This document shows, piece after piece, positions 27,719 to 41,925 of a stretch of DNA of 41,925 nt. Each line of letters opens with the position of its first letter. Position 1 is the stretch's first letter. This DNA is from Bacillota bacterium. Its GTDB lineage: Bacteria; Bacillota; Sulfobacillia; JAIMAT01. The position numbers and the translations under genes are program-made. The notes beneath the pieces were generated by a model. The model did no database searches. It was given only the letters and a program-made list of their open reading frames with translations, and was not told where the DNA came from. The stretch spans positions 1 to 41,925 of the forward strand of contig JASBVM010000016.1 of the NCBI GenBank assembly GCA_029961055.1, given 5' to 3'.

Positions 27719-29316
27719 GGCGCCGGCTCCTCCCCGGCCGCCGGCGCGCGGCCTCGCCCGCCCACGGGAGGCTCCGCCTCCTCTCGCGCCGTCGCCCCTC
27801 CCGCAGGGGCGCGCGATTCCCGCAGGAGCGACAGGACGGCCCCCAGGGCGGCGAGGAGTGCGCCGGCCAGCCAGGCGTCCCGCAATCCCATCCAGAAGGC
27901 GAGACGGCCCGCCTGCGCCGCGTCGAGCCCTTGGCCGGCGAGGGTCGCCGCCCAGGCCGAGCGGCGCGCGGTGAAGACAGCGTCGGCCAGCGCCACGCCC
28001 AGCACCATACCCACGTTCCGCACCGTGGCCAGCACCGAGGAAGCGATCCCCAGCCGCGACCGCGGCGCCGCCCCCATCACCGCGCTGTTGTTGGGCGCCT
28101 GGAAGAGCCCCGCCCCCAGCCCGAAGACGGCCATCCGCCAGGCCACCTCCCACGGAGCCGCGGCGGGCCCCAGCCCCGTCAGAAGGAGGAGCGCGGTCGC
28201 CGACAGAGCCAGCCCGGCAAAGGCCAGCGAGCGGGTTCCGATCCGGTCCGAGAGCGCCCCGGCCACCGGCGCCACCGCCAGCACCATCAGCGGGTGGGCG
28301 GTCATCACCAGGCCGGCGCGGAAGGGGTCGAGGCGCAGCAGCTGCTGCAGGTAGAACGGGATCAGGAAGGTCATGAGGAACTGGGTCACGAAGCTGAGCA
28401 GCCCCGCCGCCGAGGCTGCGCTGAAGGTGCGGCTGCGGAAGAGCGCCAGGTCCAGCATCGGTTCCGGCGTCCGCCGCTCCCAGAGGACGAAGAGGAGCCC
28501 GACGATCAGGCCGCCCGCCATGGCCGCGAGGACGGCCGGCGACCCCCAGCCCCAGCTCTCCCCCTCGCTGGCGGCCAGGAGGAGGGCGCCGAGCGCGACG
28601 ACGGCAAGCCCCGAGCCCGCCAGGTCGAAGCGCTGGCCTCCCCGCCGGGGTCCGTCGGGGAGCACGCGGCCCGTCCAGACCAGCGCGGCCAGGCCGATGG
28701 GCAGGTTGATGTAGAAGACCGAGCGCCAAGTGAGCAGCTCGGTCAGCGTACCGCCCAGCGTCGGTCCCAGCGCCAGCCCGGCCGCCACCGCCATCCCGTT
28801 GAAGCCCAGCGCCCTCCCCCGCTCCGACGGAGGGAAGACGGCGGTCAGGATGGCGGGACCGACCGCCATGAACATGGCCGCCCCCAGCGCCTGGATCCCC
28901 CGCGCCACCAGCAGGAGCGGGAAGGTGGGCGCGGCGCCGCTGGCGGCGGAGCCCAGGGTGAAGACCAGGAGCCCCGCCCGGAAGACTCGCCGGTAGCCCC
29001 ACATGTCGCCCAGGCGGCCGAAGCCCAGGAGGGTCGAGCCGATCACCAGCAGGTAGACCATCACCACCCAGCTGACGGCGGCCAGGCCGACCCTGTACTC
29101 GCCGGCGATCACCGGCATGGTCACGTTCATCACGCTGCCGTCCACAGGGCCCATGGCCCCGCCCAGGACGACGGCGGCCAGGATGCTCCAGCGGTCGGGA
29201 CGGGGCTCCGGCCGCGGGGCAGTCGCGACGCGCTCTCGCTCCGTCCCTTCTCCCTCCCCGAACGTGTGCTCCGCCTGCGGGGATCGCCCGCAGGCGCCAC
29301 GGCTCCAGGGTAGCAC
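27715..29316 (-). CDS. MFS drug exporter, DHA2 (EmrB/QacA) family
   Basis: About 533 aa with 13-14 hydrophobic segments. GAMGPVDGSVMNVTMPVIAG is the helix-1 motif, GFGRLGDMWGYRRVF the loop-2 motif, and LALGPTLGGTLTELLTWRSV the helix-5/loop motif of DHA2 proton/drug antiporters. The start is unsettled: the protein-like part begins near DRWSILAAVVLGG, but no ATG, GTG or TTG lies between it and the GTG at 29316. The tract has a good GGGGAGGGAGAAGG site at about 29250 with no start codon after it. The C-terminal tail is Pro/Ala/Glu-rich. Confidence 0.85.
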   Translation of the reverse strand: MLPWSRGACGRSPQAEHTFGEGEGTERERVATAPRPEPRPDRWSILAAVVLGGAMGPVDGSVMNVTMPVIAGEYRVGLAAVSWVVMVYLLVIGSTLLGFGRLGDMWGYRRVFRAGLLVFTLGSAASGAAPTFPLLLVARGIQALGAAMFMAVGPAILTAVFPPSERGRALGFNGMAVAAGLALGPTLGGTLTELLTWRSVFYINLPIGLAALVWTGRVLPDGPRRGGQRFDLAGSGLAVVALGALLLAASEGESWGWGSPAVLAAMAGGLIVGLLFVLWERRTPEPMLDLALFRSRTFSAASAAGLLSFVTQFLMTFLIPFYLQQLLRLDPFRAGLVMTAHPLMVLAVAPVAGALSDRIGTRSLAFAGLALSATALLLLTGLGPAAAPWEVAWRMAVFGLGAGLFQAPNNSAVMGAAPRSRLGIASSVLATVRNVGMVLGVALADAVFTARRSAWAATLAGQGLDAAQAGRLAFWMGLRDAWLAGALLAALGAVLSLLRESRAPAGGATAREEAEPPVGGRGRAPAAGEEPAP

Positions 29317-34129: not shown

Positions 34130-34744
34130 TTGTCCCGATCGATGAAGCTGATCGCGGTGATCACCCTGGTCGCGGCGCTGGGCGGAGGTGTCCTGGCCGG
34201 GGCGCTCCTGACCGGCACCGGCCATGCGGCGGGCCTCCCGGCTCCGGTGGCCCAGACGGTGGCGCAGCCGAGTTGGGTCGACGCGACGACGCCCGCCCCC
34301 GGGCAGGCGGCTCCGGGTGCCGGGCCCGCGCAGGGTGCGGGCCACGGCCGTGCCTGGAGGATGATGGCGCGCGGGGAGCGGTCCACCTGGATCAACAGCG
34401 GGCCCGCGGTGGTCGCCAAGGAGCTGGGCATGACCGTGCAGGAGCTGATCCAGGCCCGGCAGAGCGGCCAGTCCGTCGCCCAGATCGCCCAGTCCAAGGG
34501 CGTCTCGCTCCAGTCGCTGATCGACGCGGTCCTGGCGGCACCCAAGGCGGCGCTGGACGTGCGCGTGCAGCAGGGCGTGCTCACGGCCCAGGAGAGGGAC
34601 CGCATCCTCACCGAGCTGCAGCAGCGGTTGGAGACCAACTTCCAGCGCACCACCCTCGGACGCCCCGGCAAGGCGGCGCCCCCGACCACGCCCCAGACCA
34701 CCCCGCAGACCGCGACGCCGCCCGGCGGCACGAGCAGCAACTGA
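34130..34744 (+). CDS. Secreted protein with DUF2680-like helical repeat
   Basis: 204 aa. The signal peptide (SMKLIAVITLVAALGGGVLAG) is followed by a Pro/Ala/Gly-rich linker. A helical module (VAKELGMTVQELIQARQSG, SVAQIAQSKGVSLQSLIDAV, GVLTAQERDRILTELQQRLE) resembles the short repeat found in many exported Firmicute proteins. The end is a Thr/Pro-rich tail with TTPQTTPQT. Function unknown. The TTG at 34130 has GGAGG 8 bases upstream; the ATG at 34142 is an alternative. It lies 61 bases after the acyl-CoA ligase and is ended by a strong hairpin. Confidence 0.75.
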   Translation: MSRSMKLIAVITLVAALGGGVLAGALLTGTGHAAGLPAPVAQTVAQPSWVDATTPAPGQAAPGAGPAQGAGHGRAWRMMARGERSTWINSGPAVVAKELGMTVQELIQARQSGQSVAQIAQSKGVSLQSLIDAVLAAPKAALDVRVQQGVLTAQERDRILTELQQRLETNFQRTTLGRPGKAAPPTTPQTTPQTATPPGGTSSN

Positions 34745-34780
34745 GCCTCCGAGGCTCCCCGGCCTGACCGGGAATCGCAA

Positions 34781-34820
34781 GCGGAAAGGGCGAGCGCCAC
34801 GGGGCGCTCGCCCTTTCCGC
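34781..34820. terminator. Perfect 18-bp inverted repeat terminator
   Basis: GCGGAAAGGGCGAGCGCC (34781-34798), loop ACGG, then its exact complement GGCGCTCGCCCTTTCCGC (34803-34820). It lies 36 bases after the secreted-protein stop. CCCTTTCC on one side and GGAAAGGG on the other make it nearly symmetric, but the T-tract is short. Confidence 0.75.
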
Positions 34821-34942
34821 CGGGGAAGACGGAGCCGGGAGGAAGTCCGGGGCGCGGGGCTTCCTCCGGACCGGTGGACTTGGTTTGCTCGAGCCGCCGC
34901 GGTAGGTTGTTGGTGTTCGCGACCGGGGAGGTTGCCGACCGG

Positions 34943-35743
34943 ATGGACGGGGAACCGAGGGACGAGACGCCGGACGCCAGCCGACAGCCCGAGCTCAGCG
35001 TGGTCCTCCCCGCCTACAATGAGGAAGCCAACATCGGCGACACCCTGGAGCAGGTGACCGGCTTCCTCGAGGGCAGGGGGCTGGAGTACGAGCTGCTGGT
35101 GGTGGACGACGGCAGCCGGGACCGGACCGGCGCCGTGGTGACCGGCATCGCCAAGGCCAACCCGGCGATCCGCCTGCTCCGCCATACCCGGAACCGCGGT
35201 TACGGCGCCGCGCTCCGCACCGGATTCGCGGCGGCCAGAGGCCGCTGGGTCTTCTTCATGGACTCCGACGGCCAGTTCGACATCCGCGACCTGGAAGGCT
35301 TCCTCGCCCGGCGGGAGAGGGCGGACGTGCTGGTGGGCTACCGGGCCAGGAGGCGCGATCCTCCGCTGCGCCGGCTCAACGCCGCCGGCTGGAACATGCT
35401 GGTGCGACTCCTCCTCGGCGTCCCGGTCCGCGACGTGGACTGCGCCTTCAAGCTTTACCGCGCCGACGTCCTCCGACGGCTGACCATCACCTCCAGCGGC
35501 GCCACCGTCAATGCCGAGATGCTGGCCCAGGTCCGGCGCCTGGGCTACAGGCTGCTGGAGCTCCCCGTCCGCCACTTCCCCCGCACCGCCGGGCGGGCGA
35601 CGGGGAACGACCCCCGCGTGATCCTGCGCGCCTTCCGCGAGCTGGCCCGGCTCGCCCTCTCGCTCCGCCGCGGCGCCCACGACGCCAAGAAGGCCCCCGG
35701 AGCGTGGGCGGCCGGCGTCAAGCGCCCCCGGGGCGACCGCTGA
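34943..35743 (+). CDS. Family 2 glycosyltransferase (DPM1-like)
   Basis: 266 aa GT-A enzyme. VVLPAYNEEANIGDTLEQV, VVDDGSRDRTG and the metal/nucleotide-binding DSDGQFD match polyprenyl-phosphate mannose or glucose synthases; VDCAFKLYR is also typical. It has no C-terminal membrane helices. It would load a sugar from a nucleotide donor onto a lipid carrier at the inner face of the membrane. The ATG at 34943 has GGGGAGG 11 bases upstream; the frame is open to 34874. Its 3' end faces, 31 bases away, the end of a PIG-V-like mannosyltransferase that could use the lipid-linked sugar. Confidence 0.88.
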   Translation: MDGEPRDETPDASRQPELSVVLPAYNEEANIGDTLEQVTGFLEGRGLEYELLVVDDGSRDRTGAVVTGIAKANPAIRLLRHTRNRGYGAALRTGFAAARGRWVFFMDSDGQFDIRDLEGFLARRERADVLVGYRARRRDPPLRRLNAAGWNMLVRLLLGVPVRDVDCAFKLYRADVLRRLTITSSGATVNAEMLAQVRRLGYRLLELPVRHFPRTAGRATGNDPRVILRAFRELARLALSLRRGAHDAKKAPGAWAAGVKRPRGDR

Positions 35744-35774
35744 GCCGGCGGGCGCCGGAGAACCCGGCGCGCGG

Positions 35775-37010
35775 TCAGGCGATCCAGTTCCAGGTCGTGA
35801 AGAGCGTGAAGAAGAAGGCCTGGACCAGCGGCAGGCTGGAGAAGAGCGCCACCTCCACCCAGGGGCGGCGCTCGGCCGCCTGGGCCAGCGTCACCGCCAC
35901 GGGGAAGAGCACCACGAGGTAGCGGGACATGCTGGCCAGCGGCGTCATGGAGTGCAGCGTCGGCGCCGACATGGGCACCAGGACCCCGATCAGCGCCCAG
36001 AGCGCCCACGCCCGGGGCTGCCCCCAGCGCCGGCCCAGGAACGGCAGCAGCAGCCCCGCCAGCGCCGCGAGGCCGTCGATGGTGCTGTAGAGCGGGGCGA
36101 ACTGGGGCCGCCAGCCGCTGACATAGACGCCCAGCGGCCAGTGGGCGGGCGGCGGCGGCGTCACCACCCGGTCGACCGCCGTCGCCAGGCCGACCCAGGG
36201 GGCCGCGAGGTGCCGGTTCCAGCCGGCCTCGGCGTGGACGAAGCGGAGCGCGTCCCCGCTCTCCAGCCAGAGGAAGCCCGCCCAGAGCGCGAAGGCCAGC
36301 GGGATCAGGAGAAGGGGCGCCGCCCGGCGCAGGCTCGGCCCGGACCGGTACCGCTCCAGGGCGAGCCATCCCAGCGGCAGCACCAGGAGGATCCCCAGGT
36401 TCCGCGTCAGGGCCGCCGCCGCGCCCGCCACCCCCGCCCACCACCACCGCTCCCGGTCCGCCGCCCAGAAGGCGGCCACGGTGGCGAAGAGGAAGAGCGC
36501 CTCGGTGTAGATCGCCGAGAAGTAGAAGGAGGTGGGGAAGAGCAGCAGCAGGAGGACCGTCCGGAGCGCCACCCGTTCGCCCAGCCGGCGCGCCACCAGG
36601 CGGTCGAGCAGGATCAGCCCCAGGAGCAGGAAGAGGTTGGAGAGGAGCACCCCCAGGACCGCGCCGGGGAGTCCCGTCAGCCGCTCGCCCAGGCCGATCA
36701 GAAGGGGGTAGAGGGGAAAGAAGGCCTCCGGCGAGTAGTGGCTCCGGACCGGGAAGCCGAAGTAGCCGTAGCGCGCGATCTCCAGGTACCACTGGGAGTC
36801 GTACCGGTCCCACATGGTGAACAGGAGCGGCGCCTGGGAGAGCGGCCAGGGCTGTGCCGGACGGCCCCCCGGAATGCGGAGGCTGGCCGCCCAGCCGATG
36901 AAGCTGAGCGCCAGCCGCGACCCGGCCCAGGCGGCGGCGATGAGGCCGATCCGCCCCCACGCCTCACCCGGGCGAAGCCGCCCGGGGAGTGCCTGGGTCC
37001 CTTCCTCCAT
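35775..37010 (-). CDS. PIG-V-like membrane mannosyltransferase (GT-C)
   Basis: 411 aa, about ten membrane helices. The first external loop contains MWDRYDSQWYLEIARYGY, the WDxxWY-type motif of PIG-V/GT76-like enzymes that use polyprenyl-phosphate mannose. LFPTSFYFSAIYTEALFLF and LTRNLGILLVLPLGWLAL are also characteristic. It would glycosylate a lipid or protein on the outer face of the membrane; the acceptor is unknown. The ATG at 37010 shares one base with the TGA of the preceding SPW gene (TGATG), so it is translationally coupled as the last gene of a five-gene operon. Confidence 0.82.
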   Translation of the reverse strand: MEEGTQALPGRLRPGEAWGRIGLIAAAWAGSRLALSFIGWAASLRIPGGRPAQPWPLSQAPLLFTMWDRYDSQWYLEIARYGYFGFPVRSHYSPEAFFPLYPLLIGLGERLTGLPGAVLGVLLSNLFLLLGLILLDRLVARRLGERVALRTVLLLLLFPTSFYFSAIYTEALFLFATVAAFWAADRERWWWAGVAGAAAALTRNLGILLVLPLGWLALERYRSGPSLRRAAPLLLIPLAFALWAGFLWLESGDALRFVHAEAGWNRHLAAPWVGLATAVDRVVTPPPPAHWPLGVYVSGWRPQFAPLYSTIDGLAALAGLLLPFLGRRWGQPRAWALWALIGVLVPMSAPTLHSMTPLASMSRYLVVLFPVAVTLAQAAERRPWVEVALFSSLPLVQAFFFTLFTTWNWIA

Positions 37011-37303
37011 CAGCTGCGGCCGACCGGCGAGCCGCTCTCGCCCTCCGGGCCGGCCGTCCGCTCCTCGCTCGTCCCGCCGGCCGCCGCCAGCAGGTCCCGC
37101 AGCCAGAAGGCCAGGTAGCCGACCATGCCCGCCAGTGCGACCAGCGTCAGGCCGCCGCCGGCAGCAACGTTGGAGATGGTGGCGGCGGTCCACGGCCGGC
37201 CGGCCGGCTGGCTGGCCACCAGGGCGAAGGGCGAGAGCACCAGCCAGAGCCCTCCCAGGAAGAGCACGAGCAGGGCCCAGAAGCCCGCCGAGATCCGATT
37301 CAC
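37010..37303 (-). CDS. SPW-repeat-like membrane protein
   Basis: 97 aa with two hydrophobic helices. WLVLSPFALVASQPAGRPWT resembles the SPW repeat (Ser/Ala-Pro-Trp/Phe, then Trp-x-A), and a second helix reads LTLVALAGMVGYLAFWL. Function of the family unknown. The GTG at 37303 overlaps the upstream SPW gene by GTGA. It is closely similar in plan to that neighbour, so the pair probably arose by duplication and may assemble together. Confidence 0.7.
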   Translation of the reverse strand: MNRISAGFWALLVLFLGGLWLVLSPFALVASQPAGRPWTAATISNVAAGGGLTLVALAGMVGYLAFWLRDLLAAAGGTSEERTAGPEGESGSPVGRS

Positions 37304-37773
37304 AGCGACTCACCCCGTTCTGCGCTTCCCGTCCCCCGGTAGAGCGCGGCGCCGGTCCGGTCCTCGTCCCGGTGCGCGTCGGAGCCGGCGGACCGCTGCT
37401 GGCTGGCCAGCTCCTCCAGCAGCCGCGCCGCCAGGGGCACGAGCGCCTCCTCCAGGCGTTCCGACGTCAGCCCCTCGGCCGCCTCGCGCTCCGGCCCCGC
37501 CTGCGCGCGGCGCTTCGGCCGCGGCAGCGCGCCGGCCGCGCGCAGCTGGGAGACCAGCGTGGCGCCGAAGAGGAAGACGCCTGCCAGCGCCACCACGGTA
37601 ACACCGAGCCCGCTCCAGAACGAATTGAGCGTGGCGTCGTTCCAGTCGGCTCCCCGGGGCTGGAAGGCCAGCGCCCAGGGGGCGACCATCAGCCAGAAGC
37701 CGCCCAGGAGCGCGGCTAGGCTGGCGCCGATCCCCCAAAGATCTTTCCCGATACCGGCGCGCCTTCGTTCCAT
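37300..37773 (-). CDS. SPW-repeat-like membrane protein with cytosolic tail
   Basis: 157 aa. Two membrane helices (LAALLGGFWLMVAPWALAF; VTVVALAGVFLFGATLVS) flank the SPW-type stretch APWALAFQPRGADWNDATL. A charged, helical C-terminal tail of ~70 residues follows. The ATG at 37773 has GGGGGGAGAACC ahead and lies 58 bases inside the 3' end of the DHA2 exporter gene. This forces coupling to that gene. Confidence 0.72.
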   Translation of the reverse strand: MERRRAGIGKDLWGIGASLAALLGGFWLMVAPWALAFQPRGADWNDATLNSFWSGLGVTVVALAGVFLFGATLVSQLRAAGALPRPKRRAQAGPEREAAEGLTSERLEEALVPLAARLLEELASQQRSAGSDAHRDEDRTGAALYRGTGSAERGESL

Positions 37774-39827
37774 CGGTTCTCCCCCCCGTCGCGCAAGATC
37801 CGCACCGCCGTCGCCGCCGACGTCCCCGCCGCCCCGATCTCCCGGAACTCCCCCGCTGCAGCCAGCCAGGGGTCCAACAGGGCGCGGGCGGCAGGAAGCA
37901 GGAGCTCCCGGGCCACGCGGCGGCCCGCCTCTTCCACCTCCTGGGCGGGCCGGTCTCCCGCCGCCGCTCCCGCCGGCCCCCCGGCCGGCTGCCGTTCCAG
38001 CGCGGCCAGCGCCTCGAGCAGGCCGCGGTCCGCCTCCGAGCGGAGCGCCGTCCCCGCCAGGATGGCGAAGAGCGAGCCGAGAAGGAGCCGGATGTGGACC
38101 ATCCTCGCCTCCTCCCCGCCGGCCAGTTCCTGCGCCCTCTCCTCCGTCTCCATCTCCATCTCCGTCGCGGCGCCGCCGGGCTCATGCGAGCGCCGCAGCG
38201 GGATCTCCTTGAGGAAGAGGGTGACCACGAAGGCCGCCACGAGCGCCGCCGTGCCGACCGCGAAGAGCTCGGTGATGGAGACGGCCAGGCTCTCCCGGAT
38301 GGCCTGCATCAGCTGCCGGAAGAGGAGCTCGCCCTGCGGGCCGAAGTGGGCGAAGGCCTTCTGCATCTCGGCCGTCGCCTGGGGCGAGAGAAGGGCCTGC
38401 GGATTCTCCAGGGCGGCCAGCTTCCCGGCCGGCATCAGCTGGCTGAGTGCCGGCGGGATCCGGCTGTGCAGCTCCGTCTGGAAGCGGTTGGTCATCAGCG
38501 TGCCCAGGACGGCGACGCCGATGGTGCCGCCGATGGAGCGGAAGAACTGGAGGCTGGCCGTCACCTCCCCCAGGCGGCGGAAGGGGAAGGCGTTCTGGAC
38601 CACGATGGTGAAGAGGCTCATCTGCACGCCCATGCCGAGGCCCATGATGATCATGTTGCGGATGACCTCGCCGTTGGTGGCGTGCACGTCCAGGCGCGCA
38701 TTCAGGTACATGCCCACGGCGGCAACGGCGAAGCCCACCAGGGAGATGATCTTGTACCGCCCGGTCCGGGAGAGGAGCTGGCCGCCGATGATGCTGGAGG
38801 CCATGAAGCCCAGCATCATGGGCGTCAGCAGCGTGCCCGAGTTGGTGGCCGTGTCGCCGATCACGCCCTGCATGAAGAGCGGCAGGTACATCACCCCGCC
38901 GAAGAGCCCCCCGGCCACGATGAACGTCGCGATCATCGAGATCGTGAAGATGCTGTTCCGGAAGAGCGACGGGCTGATGATCGGCTCCTCCGCCCGCGAC
39001 TCCAGCCAGAAGAAGAGCACCCACATGACCGCCGAGCCGGCGAAGAGCGAGAGGATCTGCGGCGAGCCCCAGGCGTACTCCGTGCCCGCCCAGCTGAACC
39101 CGAGGAGCATCGGCACCGCCGCCGCGATCAGCACGGCGGCCCCGGGGTAGTCGATCCGGTGCTGGCGCCGCAGGCCCACGCTGGGCAGGGCGATCGCCGC
39201 GATCACCATGGCCACGATGCCCACCGGCAGGTTGACGTAGAAGACCCAGCGCCACGTCCAGTGGTCGGTGATCCACCCGCCCAGCGTCGGCCCGACGATG
39301 GTGGCCAGGCCGAAGACCGCCATCATCAGCCCCTGCCACCGGCCCCGCTCGGCGGGCGGGAAGATGTCGCCGATGATGGCGATGACGATGGGCATCATGG
39401 CGCCCGCTCCCAGGCCTTGCAGGCCGCGGAAGAGGATCAGCTCGGTCATGCTCTGGCTCTGGCCCGAGAGGGCCGAGCCGGCCACGAAGAGGAAGAGCCC
39501 CAGCAGGAAGAAGGGCCTCCGCCCGTAGACGTCGGACAGCTTCCCATAGAGCGGCACCGTCGCCGTGGAAGCCAGCATGTAGGCGGTGAAGACCCAGGAA
39601 TAGTGCTCCAGCCCGTTCAGATCCGCGATGATCCGCGGCATCGCGGTACCGACCACCGTCTGATCGATCGCGGACAGGAGCATCCCCAGCATCGCCGCCG
39701 CCACCACCAGCACCAGGCGCTCACGGCTCAGGGAGCTGCGAAGGCTCTGCCCTTCCTCGATCCGGACCGAGCCACCCTCCCCTGCGCGGCTCCTCCGCTC
39801 CCGATCCGCGGTAGACAACTCGATCAC
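37716..39827 (-). CDS. MFS multidrug exporter, DHA2 family, with C-terminal extension
   Basis: 703 aa. The first ~540 residues are a 14-helix DHA2 exporter: MLLSAIDQTVVGTAMPRII, YGKLSDVYGRRPFFLLG and IVGPTLGGWITDHWTWRWVF. After KEIPLRRSHEPGG comes an acidic linker (ATEMEMETEERAQEL) and a ~130-residue extension with one hydrophobic stretch (IRLLLGSLFAILAGTAL) and Ala/Glu-rich helices. An in-frame ATG at 38102 with GGAGGAGGCGAGG ahead could start the extension as a separate 128-residue protein. The main GTG start at 39827 overlaps the marR-like stop (GTGA). Probably a drug/proton antiporter controlled by that regulator. Confidence 0.9.
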   Translation of the reverse strand: MIELSTADRERRSRAGEGGSVRIEEGQSLRSSLSRERLVLVVAAAMLGMLLSAIDQTVVGTAMPRIIADLNGLEHYSWVFTAYMLASTATVPLYGKLSDVYGRRPFFLLGLFLFVAGSALSGQSQSMTELILFRGLQGLGAGAMMPIVIAIIGDIFPPAERGRWQGLMMAVFGLATIVGPTLGGWITDHWTWRWVFYVNLPVGIVAMVIAAIALPSVGLRRQHRIDYPGAAVLIAAAVPMLLGFSWAGTEYAWGSPQILSLFAGSAVMWVLFFWLESRAEEPIISPSLFRNSIFTISMIATFIVAGGLFGGVMYLPLFMQGVIGDTATNSGTLLTPMMLGFMASSIIGGQLLSRTGRYKIISLVGFAVAAVGMYLNARLDVHATNGEVIRNMIIMGLGMGVQMSLFTIVVQNAFPFRRLGEVTASLQFFRSIGGTIGVAVLGTLMTNRFQTELHSRIPPALSQLMPAGKLAALENPQALLSPQATAEMQKAFAHFGPQGELLFRQLMQAIRESLAVSITELFAVGTAALVAAFVVTLFLKEIPLRRSHEPGGAATEMEMETEERAQELAGGEEARMVHIRLLLGSLFAILAGTALRSEADRGLLEALAALERQPAGGPAGAAAGDRPAQEVEEAGRRVARELLLPAARALLDPWLAAAGEFREIGAAGTSAATAVRILRDGGENRWNEGAPVSGKIFGGSAPA

Positions 39828-40360
39828 CCGTCCTTCCTTGAAGCCTGCACGGTACTCGTCCTGCGGTCCGGGCGGGCCCCCTCCGCAACGAGGGCGTCCA
39901 GGGCCCGGGTCAGCGCCTCCAGCCCCCGCGCCAGCGCCTCGAGGTCCTCGTCCGCCAGGAGGTCGAGCGACCGTTCGAGCCAGCGCTGGCTCCCGTGGCG
40001 GAGCGCCGCCACCTGCTCCTCCCCCCGCGCGCTGAGCGAGACCAGCGTCCGCCGGCGATCCCGGCGGTCCTCCTCGCGACGGGCCAGTTCCAGGCGGACC
40101 AGGCGGTCCACCAGCGCGCTGGCGGTCGGCTCGCTCACCCCCAGCACCTCGGCCAGGCGGCCGACGGGCATGGGACCGTGACGGACGAGGGCGAAGAGCC
40201 CCTTCACCTGGCCCATGGTCAGGTCGAGCGCCAGCCATCCGGACGCGTCGGCGCCCTGGCCCAGCATCGCCAGCCGGCGCAGCTCGTGCAGGCTGTGCAT
40301 GATCCGCTGGCGGCGCCGCTCGCTCCCCTGAGAGCCCGGCTGGAGATCTCGCTGGCCCAT
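39824..40360 (-). CDS. MarR-family transcriptional regulator
   Basis: 178 aa winged-helix regulator. MGQVKGLFALVRHGPMPVGR, LGVSEPTASALVDRLVRLEL and the wing RREEDRRDRRRTLVSLSARG are MarR marks, followed by a dimerisation helix. It probably represses its own operon (exporter, two SPW proteins, mannosyltransferase) until a ligand binds. The ATG at 40360 has GAGGGGAGCG ahead; the frame stays open to 40474 but would include the promoter. Confidence 0.9.
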   Translation of the reverse strand: MGQRDLQPGSQGSERRRQRIMHSLHELRRLAMLGQGADASGWLALDLTMGQVKGLFALVRHGPMPVGRLAEVLGVSEPTASALVDRLVRLELARREEDRRDRRRTLVSLSARGEEQVAALRHGSQRWLERSLDLLADEDLEALARGLEALTRALDALVAEGARPDRRTSTVQASRKDG

Positions 40361-40412
40361 ACGCTCCCCTCTCGGACGGCTCCGGCTGAGACGCCCACCC
40401 GTCACGACGGTT

Positions 40413-40441
40413 AGAATACGTCGATTGTTTCGGGAATGCAA
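40413..40441 (-). promoter_or_regulatory. Promoter of the marR - exporter operon
   Basis: Minus strand TTGCAT (40441-40436), a 17-base spacer and TATTCT (40418-40413), in an AT-rich patch 53 bases before the marR-like ATG. MarR binding here is inferred. Confidence 0.65.
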
Positions 40442-40510
40442 ATAGAACGCGGCAGCCTCGTCCGGCCGCGCCATCCGGCGGGCCGGGCGGAGCCGCCGCG
40501 CGGCTCCTCT

Positions 40511-40963
40511 TCAGTTCGCCCGGCCGACCTCGGCCGGAACCGCGTCCGGCAGGACGTGGGTCCCGCTCTCCCCGGCCAGGGCCCGCTCCACGTCGGTCAG
40601 CGCGGCGATGATGGCCTCGCGGCCGCCCGCCTCCACGAAGCGGATGGCCGCCCTGATCTTGGGGCCCATGCTTCCCTCCGCGAACTCGCCCTGCTCCAGA
40701 TAGCGGCGCGCCTCGCCCGCGGCGACCCGGCCCAGCGGCCGCGCATCCGGTCTCCGGTAGCGGAGGAAGGCCTGGGCTACGTCGGTCAGGATGACCAGGC
40801 GCTCCGCCCCCACGTCCACCGCCAGGCGCTGGGCACCCAGGTCCTTGTCGATGACCCCCTCGGCGCCCTCGTAGCGGATGCGGCCCTCCGCCGAGCGGCG
40901 TTCCACCACCGGGATGCCGCCGCCTCCCGCGCAGACCACCAGCACGCCCGCGTCGACCAGCGC
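40511..40963 (-). CDS. arcC: Carbamate kinase, N-terminal half missing
   Basis: The last 150 residues of carbamate kinase: GVLVVCAGGGGIPVV, GVIDKDLGAQRLAVDVGA, LVILTDV and GSMGPKIRAAIRFVEAGG hold the nucleotide-binding half. Family proteins have ~310 residues. The kinase sequence stops at about 40963, in the middle of a helix (ALVDAG), and upstream of it on the same strand is antisense narG DNA, so no start codon exists. The enzyme would make ATP from carbamoyl phosphate in the arginine deiminase or purine-degradation pathway; this copy cannot work as it stands. Confidence 0.85.
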   Translation of the reverse strand, partial: ALVDAGVLVVCAGGGGIPVVERRSAEGRIRYEGAEGVIDKDLGAQRLAVDVGAERLVILTDVAQAFLRYRRPDARPLGRVAAGEARRYLEQGEFAEGSMGPKIRAAIRFVEAGGREAIIAALTDVERALAGESGTHVLPDAVPAEVGRAN

Positions 40964-41925
40964 GTCCTCTCGCTGCTGGGCGGGGTGATGCTCAGCTTCT
41001 ACGACTGGTACGCCGACCTGCCGCCGGCCTCGCCGCAGGTCTGGGGCGAGCAGACCGACGTGCCGGAGAGCGGCGACTGGTACAACGCCTCCTACCTGAT
41101 CGTCTGGGGCACCAACGTGCCCATGACGCGGACGCCGGACGCGCACTTCCTGGTCGAGGCGCGCTACCGCGGGGCGAAGGTGGTGGCGGTCAGCCCGGAC
41201 TACGCCGAGGTGGTCAAGTTCGCCGACCAGTGGCTGCCGGCGCGGCCGGGGACCGACGGGGCGCTGGCCATGGCCATGACCCACGTCATCCTGAGGGAGT
41301 TCTACCTCGAGCGCGAGACGCCGTACTTCACCGACTACGCCAGGCGCTACACCGACCTGCCCTGCCTGGTGCGGCTGCGGAAGCACGGGGAGGCCTGGGT
41401 GCCCGACCGCTTCCTGCGGGCGAGCGACCTGGGTCTGGAGGAGCCCCACGCCGAGTGGAAGACGCTGGTCTGGGACGCCGCCGCGGGCGCGCCGGCCGTG
41501 CCCAACGGCAGCCTCGGCTTCCGCTGGAGCGAGGAGGGGCGCTGGAACCTGAAGCTGGAGACGGGGGACGGGCGCCCCGTCGACCCGGCGCTGACGCTCC
41601 TCGGGCGGGAGGAGGCCGTCCTGCCGGTGGAGCTGGCCTACTTCGGCGACGGCGCGCCCGCCCTCCTGCGCCGCTCGGTGCCCGCGGTGCGCGTCGCCGA
41701 TCCGGGCGGGACGGACGGGACCTACGTGACCACGGTCTTCGACCTGCTCCTGGCCCAGGCGGGCCTGGGACGCGGCCTGCCCGGCGACTACCCGGCGGGC
41801 TACGACGACCCCCGCCCCTACACCCCGGCCTGGCAGGAGGCCATCACCGGCGTCGACCGGCGCCTGGCGATCCGCGTGGCGCGCGAGTTCGCCGAGAACG
41901 CCGCGCTCACCCGCGGCCGCTCCAT
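40964..41925 (+). CDS. narG: Respiratory nitrate reductase alpha subunit NarG, internal fragment
   Basis: An open frame of ~320 codons from RVLSLLGGVMLSFYDWYADL to the window end without a stop. GEQTDVPESGDWYN (with the Asp that ligates molybdenum in NarG), NVPMTRTPDAHFLVEARYRG and VAVSPDYAEVVKFADQWL are unmistakable for NarG. The first ~200 residues, including the [4Fe-4S] FS0 site, are missing at the left break, and the right end is cut by the window. NarG is the catalytic subunit of the membrane nitrate reductase NarGHI, using quinol electrons to reduce nitrate. Confidence 0.88.

Follow-up and report, generated by a model that had tools for sequence, protein, structure and literature searches.

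A MarR–DHA2 exporter cassette with two single-hairpin SPW-like membrane proteins recurs within one class of Bacillota

Why would an antibiotic-type exporter share an operon with two small membrane proteins and a sugar transferase? The question is raised by five overlapping genes on the minus strand of contig JASBVM010000016.1 (assembly GCA_029961055.1, Bacillota, class Sulfobacillia), whose 41,925 nucleotides were analysed as a whole and are called the window below. The genes encode, in order, a MarR-family repressor, a DHA2-type exporter of the major facilitator superfamily (MFS), two SPW-like proteins, here named SPW1 and SPW2, and a PIG-V-like mannosyltransferase. A preliminary description of this DNA read all five as possibly one envelope glycosylation/export system. 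We found that conservation is real for the first four genes as a unit, and we propose with moderate confidence that the MarR protein, the EmrB-like DHA2 exporter and two dedicated single-hairpin SPW partners constitute one functional unit. The layout itself was as first described, with overlaps of 4, 58, 4 and 1 bases at the successive junctions and 31 bases separating the PIG-V stop from the end of a convergent GT2/DPM1-like gene, all by open reading frame (ORF) coordinates. The five genes are as follows.

39824..40360, minus strand: MarR-family repressor, 178 amino acids, first gene of the operon; ATG at 40360, directly preceded by the Shine-Dalgarno-like AGGGGAG; PF01047.
37716..39827, minus strand: DHA2-type MFS exporter, 703 amino acids; GTG start; TIGR00711 and MFS_1.
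37300..37773, minus strand: SPW1, single-hairpin membrane protein with a C-terminal helix and tail motif, 157 amino acids; ATG start; PF03779 below cut-off.
37010..37303, minus strand: SPW2, single-hairpin membrane protein, 97 amino acids; GTG start; PF03779 below cut-off.
35775..37010, minus strand: PIG-V-like GT-C mannosyltransferase, 411 amino acids; ATG start; PF04188.

G001 and G002, two further members of the genus, carry the complete order MarR-DHA2-SPW1-SPW2-PIG-V together with the convergent GT2 gene, and the five-gene order was limited to these three genomes of one genus, the window included. An initial search of 121 relatives detected SPW1 in 16 genomes, and an SPW1 profile built from 15 proteins matched 39/154 genomes of the class; among 398 genomes of the phylum it matched four, two of which belong to the same class and two of which were weak (E-values 2e-4 and 5e-4). 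Fifty-seven loci were fetched and scanned, and 55 of them held SPW1 by hidden Markov model (HMM), L075 and L149 being left out as lacking it; weak second SPW1 matches, for example G027:C41 and G118:C108, lie outside the fetched set. At the 55 non-window loci the same-strand neighbours of SPW1, also assigned by HMM, included SPW2 at 51, DHA2 at 47 and MarR at 45, with DHA2 located upstream of SPW1 at 45 loci and downstream at 2 (L069 and L073). These loci came from 37 genomes, and a DHA2-bearing cassette was found in 33 of the 37, covering 14 genera of families f1, f7, f38 and f47. Because genomes of the class contain some 6–13 DHA2-type matches each, we estimate, assuming 2500 genes, that chance would place DHA2 next to SPW1 at about 1 locus in 100. 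The arrangement exceeds chance: the overlapping order occurs in 3/3 genomes of the genus and the first four genes occur in 14 genera. The suspected pairing of exporter and SPW genes proved to be both real and recurrent.

Eight SPW1 loci carried no DHA2 gene (L061, L067, L068, L116, L117, L119, L122 and L123); L123 holds an internally deleted DHA2 remnant, and L061 and L068 stop at the contig edge. L117, L119 and L122 belong to three genomes of genus g51, and in two of these genomes a full cassette is also present at another place. No SPW relatives were matched on plasmids by tblastn. Across the phylum, the Pfam SPW profile PF03779 matched 25/398 genomes; the flanks of 24 other fetched matches (L182–L205) contained no DHA2, and the only match with a neighbouring DHA2 gene, L206, is a cassette of the class.

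What, then, are the two small proteins? SPW1 and SPW2 are divergent, single-unit relatives of the SPW family, because both scored below the PF03779 cut-off (22.8 and 18.1 bits, respectively, versus 31.5 bits). Weak PF03779 matches, with E-values up to 0.01, were obtained for 8/15 SPW1 and 11/14 SPW2 proteins. As in the SPW family, the window proteins have two membrane helices per unit and the conserved SPW-type proline, the motif reading APW in SPW1 and SPF in SPW2, but each has one unit, where two is usual, and SPW1 has a tail helix in addition. The motif proline (P32) was invariant in 49 SPW1 rows. The AlphaFold2 model of SPW1 (mean predicted local distance difference test score, pLDDT, 71.8) placed the hairpin helices at residues 9–35 and 46–80 and a third helix at 104–140, with block pLDDT up to 87 in the latter, and positively charged residues flank the hairpin on both sides. 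The third helix contains the tail motif LxxLAxxLLxxL (LxxLAxxLLxDL), which scored 23.3 bits in the window and was found in 50/55 SPW1 proteins as well as in the window, in 1–3 copies joined by unconserved linkers. Comparison of the SPW1 structure yielded no match at E ≤0.001 (best 0.73), and the best match of the SPW1 profile to PDB sequences had an E-value of 0.074. A single docking helix common to all three membrane proteins was considered and ruled out, as the SPW1 tail profile detects SPW1 tails but misses the DHA2 tail; of SPW2 tails it matched only two among 3969 ORFs, weakly (domain E-values 0.1–0.2). Separately, the SPW1 frame of L061 (122-1213, G118:C241) runs into a long C-terminal part that in our reading resembles the end of CoaBC; this may be a fusion, or the short contig may be misassembled.

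It might be argued that the operon is an ordinary MarR-DHA2 drug-efflux operon in a mobile or often-copied cassette, with which the SPW genes travel as neutral hitch-hikers. Many genomes indeed carry two or three cassettes, and MarR-DHA2 pairs are a common arrangement (EmrR-EmrAB), which count in favour of such an explanation. However, SPW1 is under selection, because the tail motif and five hairpin residues that are invariant or nearly so have been kept at only 20% mean column identity, and both gene orders exist, so that the genes were rearranged yet never separated. We consider hitch-hiking very improbable.

The exporters linked to SPW1 fall into two types, and the types bear on whether the SPW proteins belong with the exporter. 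In type A cassettes the exporter was 51–82% identical to that of the window, and in type B cassettes about 24%. Asp55 of helix 1 and Pro180 of the GP dipeptide of motif C were present in 17/17 type A rows, including the window; in type B, Asn replaced the helix-1 Asp in 25/25 rows and Leu or Ile replaced the motif C Pro in 25/25. An acidic residue in helix 1 and GP in antiporter motif C are hallmarks of DHA2/EmrB proteins, and type B exporters scored below the TIGR00711 cut-off of 230.2 (185.5 and 175.9 bits). Neither the aspartate of helix 1 nor the GP dipeptide has survived in the type B exporters of L070, L071 and L073 and 22 others. Because of this loss, energy coupling in type B may differ from that of classic drug/proton antiporters. 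In 40/40 cassettes the nearest relative of SPW1 came from a cassette of the same exporter type, although many genomes hold both types, and DHA2 and SPW1 distances were correlated (Mantel r 0.56, with 0/2000 permutations as high); the 40 compared, of 47 cassettes, are those present in both alignments. The match of types, with both types coexisting in many genomes, indicated that the exporter and SPW1 have been inherited together without exchange.

A second feature distinguishing the linked exporters was found beyond the membrane core. The window exporter passed both TIGR00711 (DHA2/EmrB; 291.7 bits versus the curated cut-off 230.2) and MFS_1 (189.1 versus 33.4 bits). Its membrane core spans approximately residues 35–536 and is followed by a helical C-terminal domain at approximately 572–660, while its best solved relatives, EmrB, EfpA, MHAS2168 and QacA, cover residues 29–472 at most (phmmer against PDB sequences; Foldseek). 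The AlphaFold2 model (mean pLDDT 80.3) placed tail helices at 572–595, 601–611 and 628–664, the better parts of which reached block pLDDT of 84–92. In 11 genomes, the tail part of the exporter profile was reached by 12/12 SPW-linked DHA2 matches versus 2/88 unlinked ones (Fisher p 9e-14), the latter figure expressing how far each match extends in the profile. Loci were assigned to 30 of the 100 DHA2 matches, plus L218, which was fetched later; reading the loci of 18 unlinked exporters revealed one with a tail (L169), and L218 was found afterwards as the second tailed case. A separate small gene hidden in the DHA2-SPW1 overlap, suspected from apparent gaps at other loci, was ruled out: the DHA2 frames of relatives continue through the same stretch as the C-terminal domain. 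Two other proteins of the exporter family were noted along the way. The window contains a second DHA2-type exporter match at 27967-29235, which has no SPW genes beside it and does not cover the tail section of the profile, and L175 (439-3255, G102:C363) encodes a 938-residue DHA2-like MFS protein ending in carboxypeptidase-regulatory/SdrD-B-like (Ig-type) domains, an unusual fusion.

How the operon may be switched on is suggested by its first gene and the DNA before it. The MarR protein passed PF01047 with 47.5 bits (cut-off 24.6), and upstream of several cassettes, for example at L128, L121 and L123, we found palindromes with ATTGTC...GACAAT arms, a form typical of MarR sites. In the type B loci L128, L121, L123, L124 and L125 the palindromes before MarR, with TTGTC...GACAA arms, are candidate operators, and the type A loci L062, L145 and L146 have another palindrome in common, TAGTTTG...CAAACCAT; the search scored simple palindromes without motif statistics. 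In the window, the region before MarR contains the following element.

40413..40441, minus strand: weak promoter-like element TTGCAT-17-TATTCT, from reading of the sequence.

Expression of all five genes from this element had been suggested, and co-expression is very likely; the element itself is present but weak, agreeing with the sigma-70 consensus at 7/12 positions by our count, and the consensus promoter scanner listed no promoter in 34700–41925. At the matching position upstream of MarR in G001 (L059), a genome of the same genus, stands TTGCGT-17-TAGGCT. The 17-base spacing is therefore common to two genomes, the window and G001, and the contig of the third genome of the genus starts inside MarR.

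From linkage, co-inheritance and tail conservation we infer that the SPW proteins may serve as partners of the exporter, in the following way. The DHA2 (EmrB-like) protein would act as a proton-driven exporter. The C termini of the exporter, SPW1 and SPW2 would all lie in the cytoplasm, because the exporter has an even number of helices and the hairpin of SPW1 has positive residues on either side. Through these cytoplasmic tails SPW1 and SPW2 would assemble with the exporter, which they might stabilise, gate or tune. MarR would act as repressor, to be released by a lipophilic compound that is probably a substrate of the exporter, and the short gene overlaps would keep the protein amounts matched. 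The PIG-V gene would be a passenger that entered the operon in this genus.

Several observations weigh against such a partnership. At L117, L119 and L122 a clean MarR-SPW1-SPW2 set stands with no exporter gene; the SPW pair can therefore persist without an adjoining one. The tail also occurs in two unlinked exporters (L169/L217 in G104 and L218 in G086, both genomes having SPW cassettes elsewhere), and in the linked exporters of L150 and L151 it is short, at 47 residues. The tail profile was made from linked exporters and is hence biased to them, so that weak matches could lose their tails. The DHA2 protein of the window scored 0.2 bits with the SPW1 tail profile, the SPW1 model was weak overall (predicted template modelling score, pTM, 0.36) in AlphaFold2 runs on single proteins only, and a simple palindrome scan revealed no clear operator in the window itself. 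The exporter-less loci also favour the main rival explanation, that SPW1 and SPW2 act separately in the membrane, for example by protecting or sealing it when lipophilic compounds or acid cause stress, and are co-regulated by MarR without touching the exporter. The classic two-unit SPW proteins of the class, which score above the Pfam cut-off, are encoded by separate genes, and the flanking DNA fetched for the ten best (L207–L216) contained no DHA2 match. In the part of the literature consulted, SPW proteins are described as one- or two-unit membrane repeats partnered by VKOR or epimerase domains, no transporter being named as a partner and no function being given (PMC8078820); the exporter linkage of the window proteins departs from that description, and the literature searched yielded no paper that connects SPW proteins with transport. 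However, co-regulation alone does not predict the extra C-terminal domain of linked exporters, and the tracking of exporter subfamily by SPW1 in every cassette compared also argues against separate action, which we regard as doubtful. We therefore retain the view of an exporter with dedicated SPW partners.

The fifth gene of the operon leads to a different module. Beyond it lies its convergent neighbour.

34874..35743, plus strand: DPM1-like GT2 glycosyltransferase, 289 amino acids; PF00535.

The PIG-V-like protein passed PF04188 (34.6 versus 22.4 bits), and Asp71, the acidic residue of the WD motif in its first outer loop, was invariant in 15/15 proteins; no match to PDB sequences was obtained at E 0.1. 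By family, it would transfer mannose from a polyprenyl-phosphate donor. The GT2 protein passed PF00535 (112.9 versus 23.3 bits) and is likely to be the donor synthase of the PIG-V enzyme, an assignment that had been proposed before and is reasonable in itself, as a DPM1-like gene lay on the same strand in the fetched flank at 13/27 PIG-V loci outside the genus; it concerns, though, a module other than the exporter cassette. Like other bacterial GT2 and GT-C pairs (DPM1/Ppm1-like), the two genes are neighbours; unlike them, the window pair is convergent and its PIG-V gene is attached to an exporter operon. On the reading of the preliminary description, the exporter, the SPW proteins and a PIG-V enzyme fed by the DPM1-like synthase would form a drug- or stress-induced unit for the modification and export of glycans or glycolipids of the envelope. 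The five-gene order in three genomes of the genus and the frequent DPM1-PIG-V neighbourhood in the class are in line with this, as is G126 (L134), where the sole PIG-V/DPM1 pair outside the genus that adjoins a MarR-DHA2-SPW1-SPW2 cassette is convergent with it. However, SPW genes stood near PIG-V at only 3/30 PIG-V loci of the class, all in the genus of the window; outside this genus PIG-V is missing from almost every cassette, L134 being the exception; and the PIG-V genes of G094, G086, G049, G033, G104, G116 and others are on other contigs or far from the cassettes. The gene order therefore extends beyond this one genome, but its PIG-V part is confined to a single genus. Because PIG-V is linked to SPW only in this genus and paired with DPM1 at many loci elsewhere, we regard PIG-V and DPM1 as a module of their own, which became attached to the exporter operon here. 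Nothing found supports a role of the exporter in envelope glycans, and a five-gene glycan-export unit appears improbable. In G001, frame-broken PIG-V-like fragments were also seen on the minus strand of L059 (14347-15409), overlapping a frame of the AbiEii toxin family.

The flanks of the locus complete the picture. The upstream neighbour is an amino-acid-kinase gene (PF00696) ending at 40511, probably encoding carbamate kinase, and between it and the operon lies a palindrome.

40490..40508, minus strand: 8-bp G+C-rich hairpin, GGAGCCGCGCGGCGGCTCC, from the palindrome scan.

This hairpin has no T-tract, and its role as a putative terminator is uncertain. On the far side of the GT2 gene, window positions 34130-34744 encode a 204-residue Pfam-negative protein whose place next to GT2 is kept in G001 and G002 (65–71% identity).

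Among known systems, the closest comparison is EmrAB-TolC. Of the solved structures, that of EmrB comes closest to the window exporter (8zal, 26% identity over 514 columns; 8zar, phmmer E-value 6.5e-45), and in both cases a MarR-family regulator is involved, EmrR there and the leading gene here. In contrast to that system, no EmrA/HlyD-like adaptor match was obtained among the five proteins of the window, which has two SPW hairpin proteins instead, and its exporter carries the helical C-terminal domain, of about 130 residues, past the part matched by EmrB. Because an adaptor gene is missing from the five, the operon does not specify an EmrAB pump. A second comparison is offered by mycobacteria, in which P55/Rv1410 and LprG share an operon: there too a DHA2-type exporter has a dedicated, co-encoded partner that is not a transporter, and the homologue MHAS2168 (8pnl) was among the best solved matches of the window exporter. 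LprG, unlike the paired membrane hairpins with their predicted cytoplasmic tails, is a lipoprotein outside the membrane.

Taken a step further, the cassette might represent a new architecture of MFS exporters, a DHA2 hetero-oligomer with SPW1 and SPW2 subunits docked by cytoplasmic helical tails, which would have evolved for at least two subfamilies, one of them without the helix-1 aspartate and GP motif, within one Bacillota class of thermophilic or acidophilic lifestyle; we offer this as a tentative extension. As far as the literature searched shows, the recurrent link to DHA2 gives the SPW family its first testable context. It suggests that some MFS exporters, usually viewed as single chains or as partnered by periplasmic adaptors, need small membrane subunits, and the cassette, in which two subfamilies with different proton-coupling residues have the same kind of partner, provides a natural test of that partner role.

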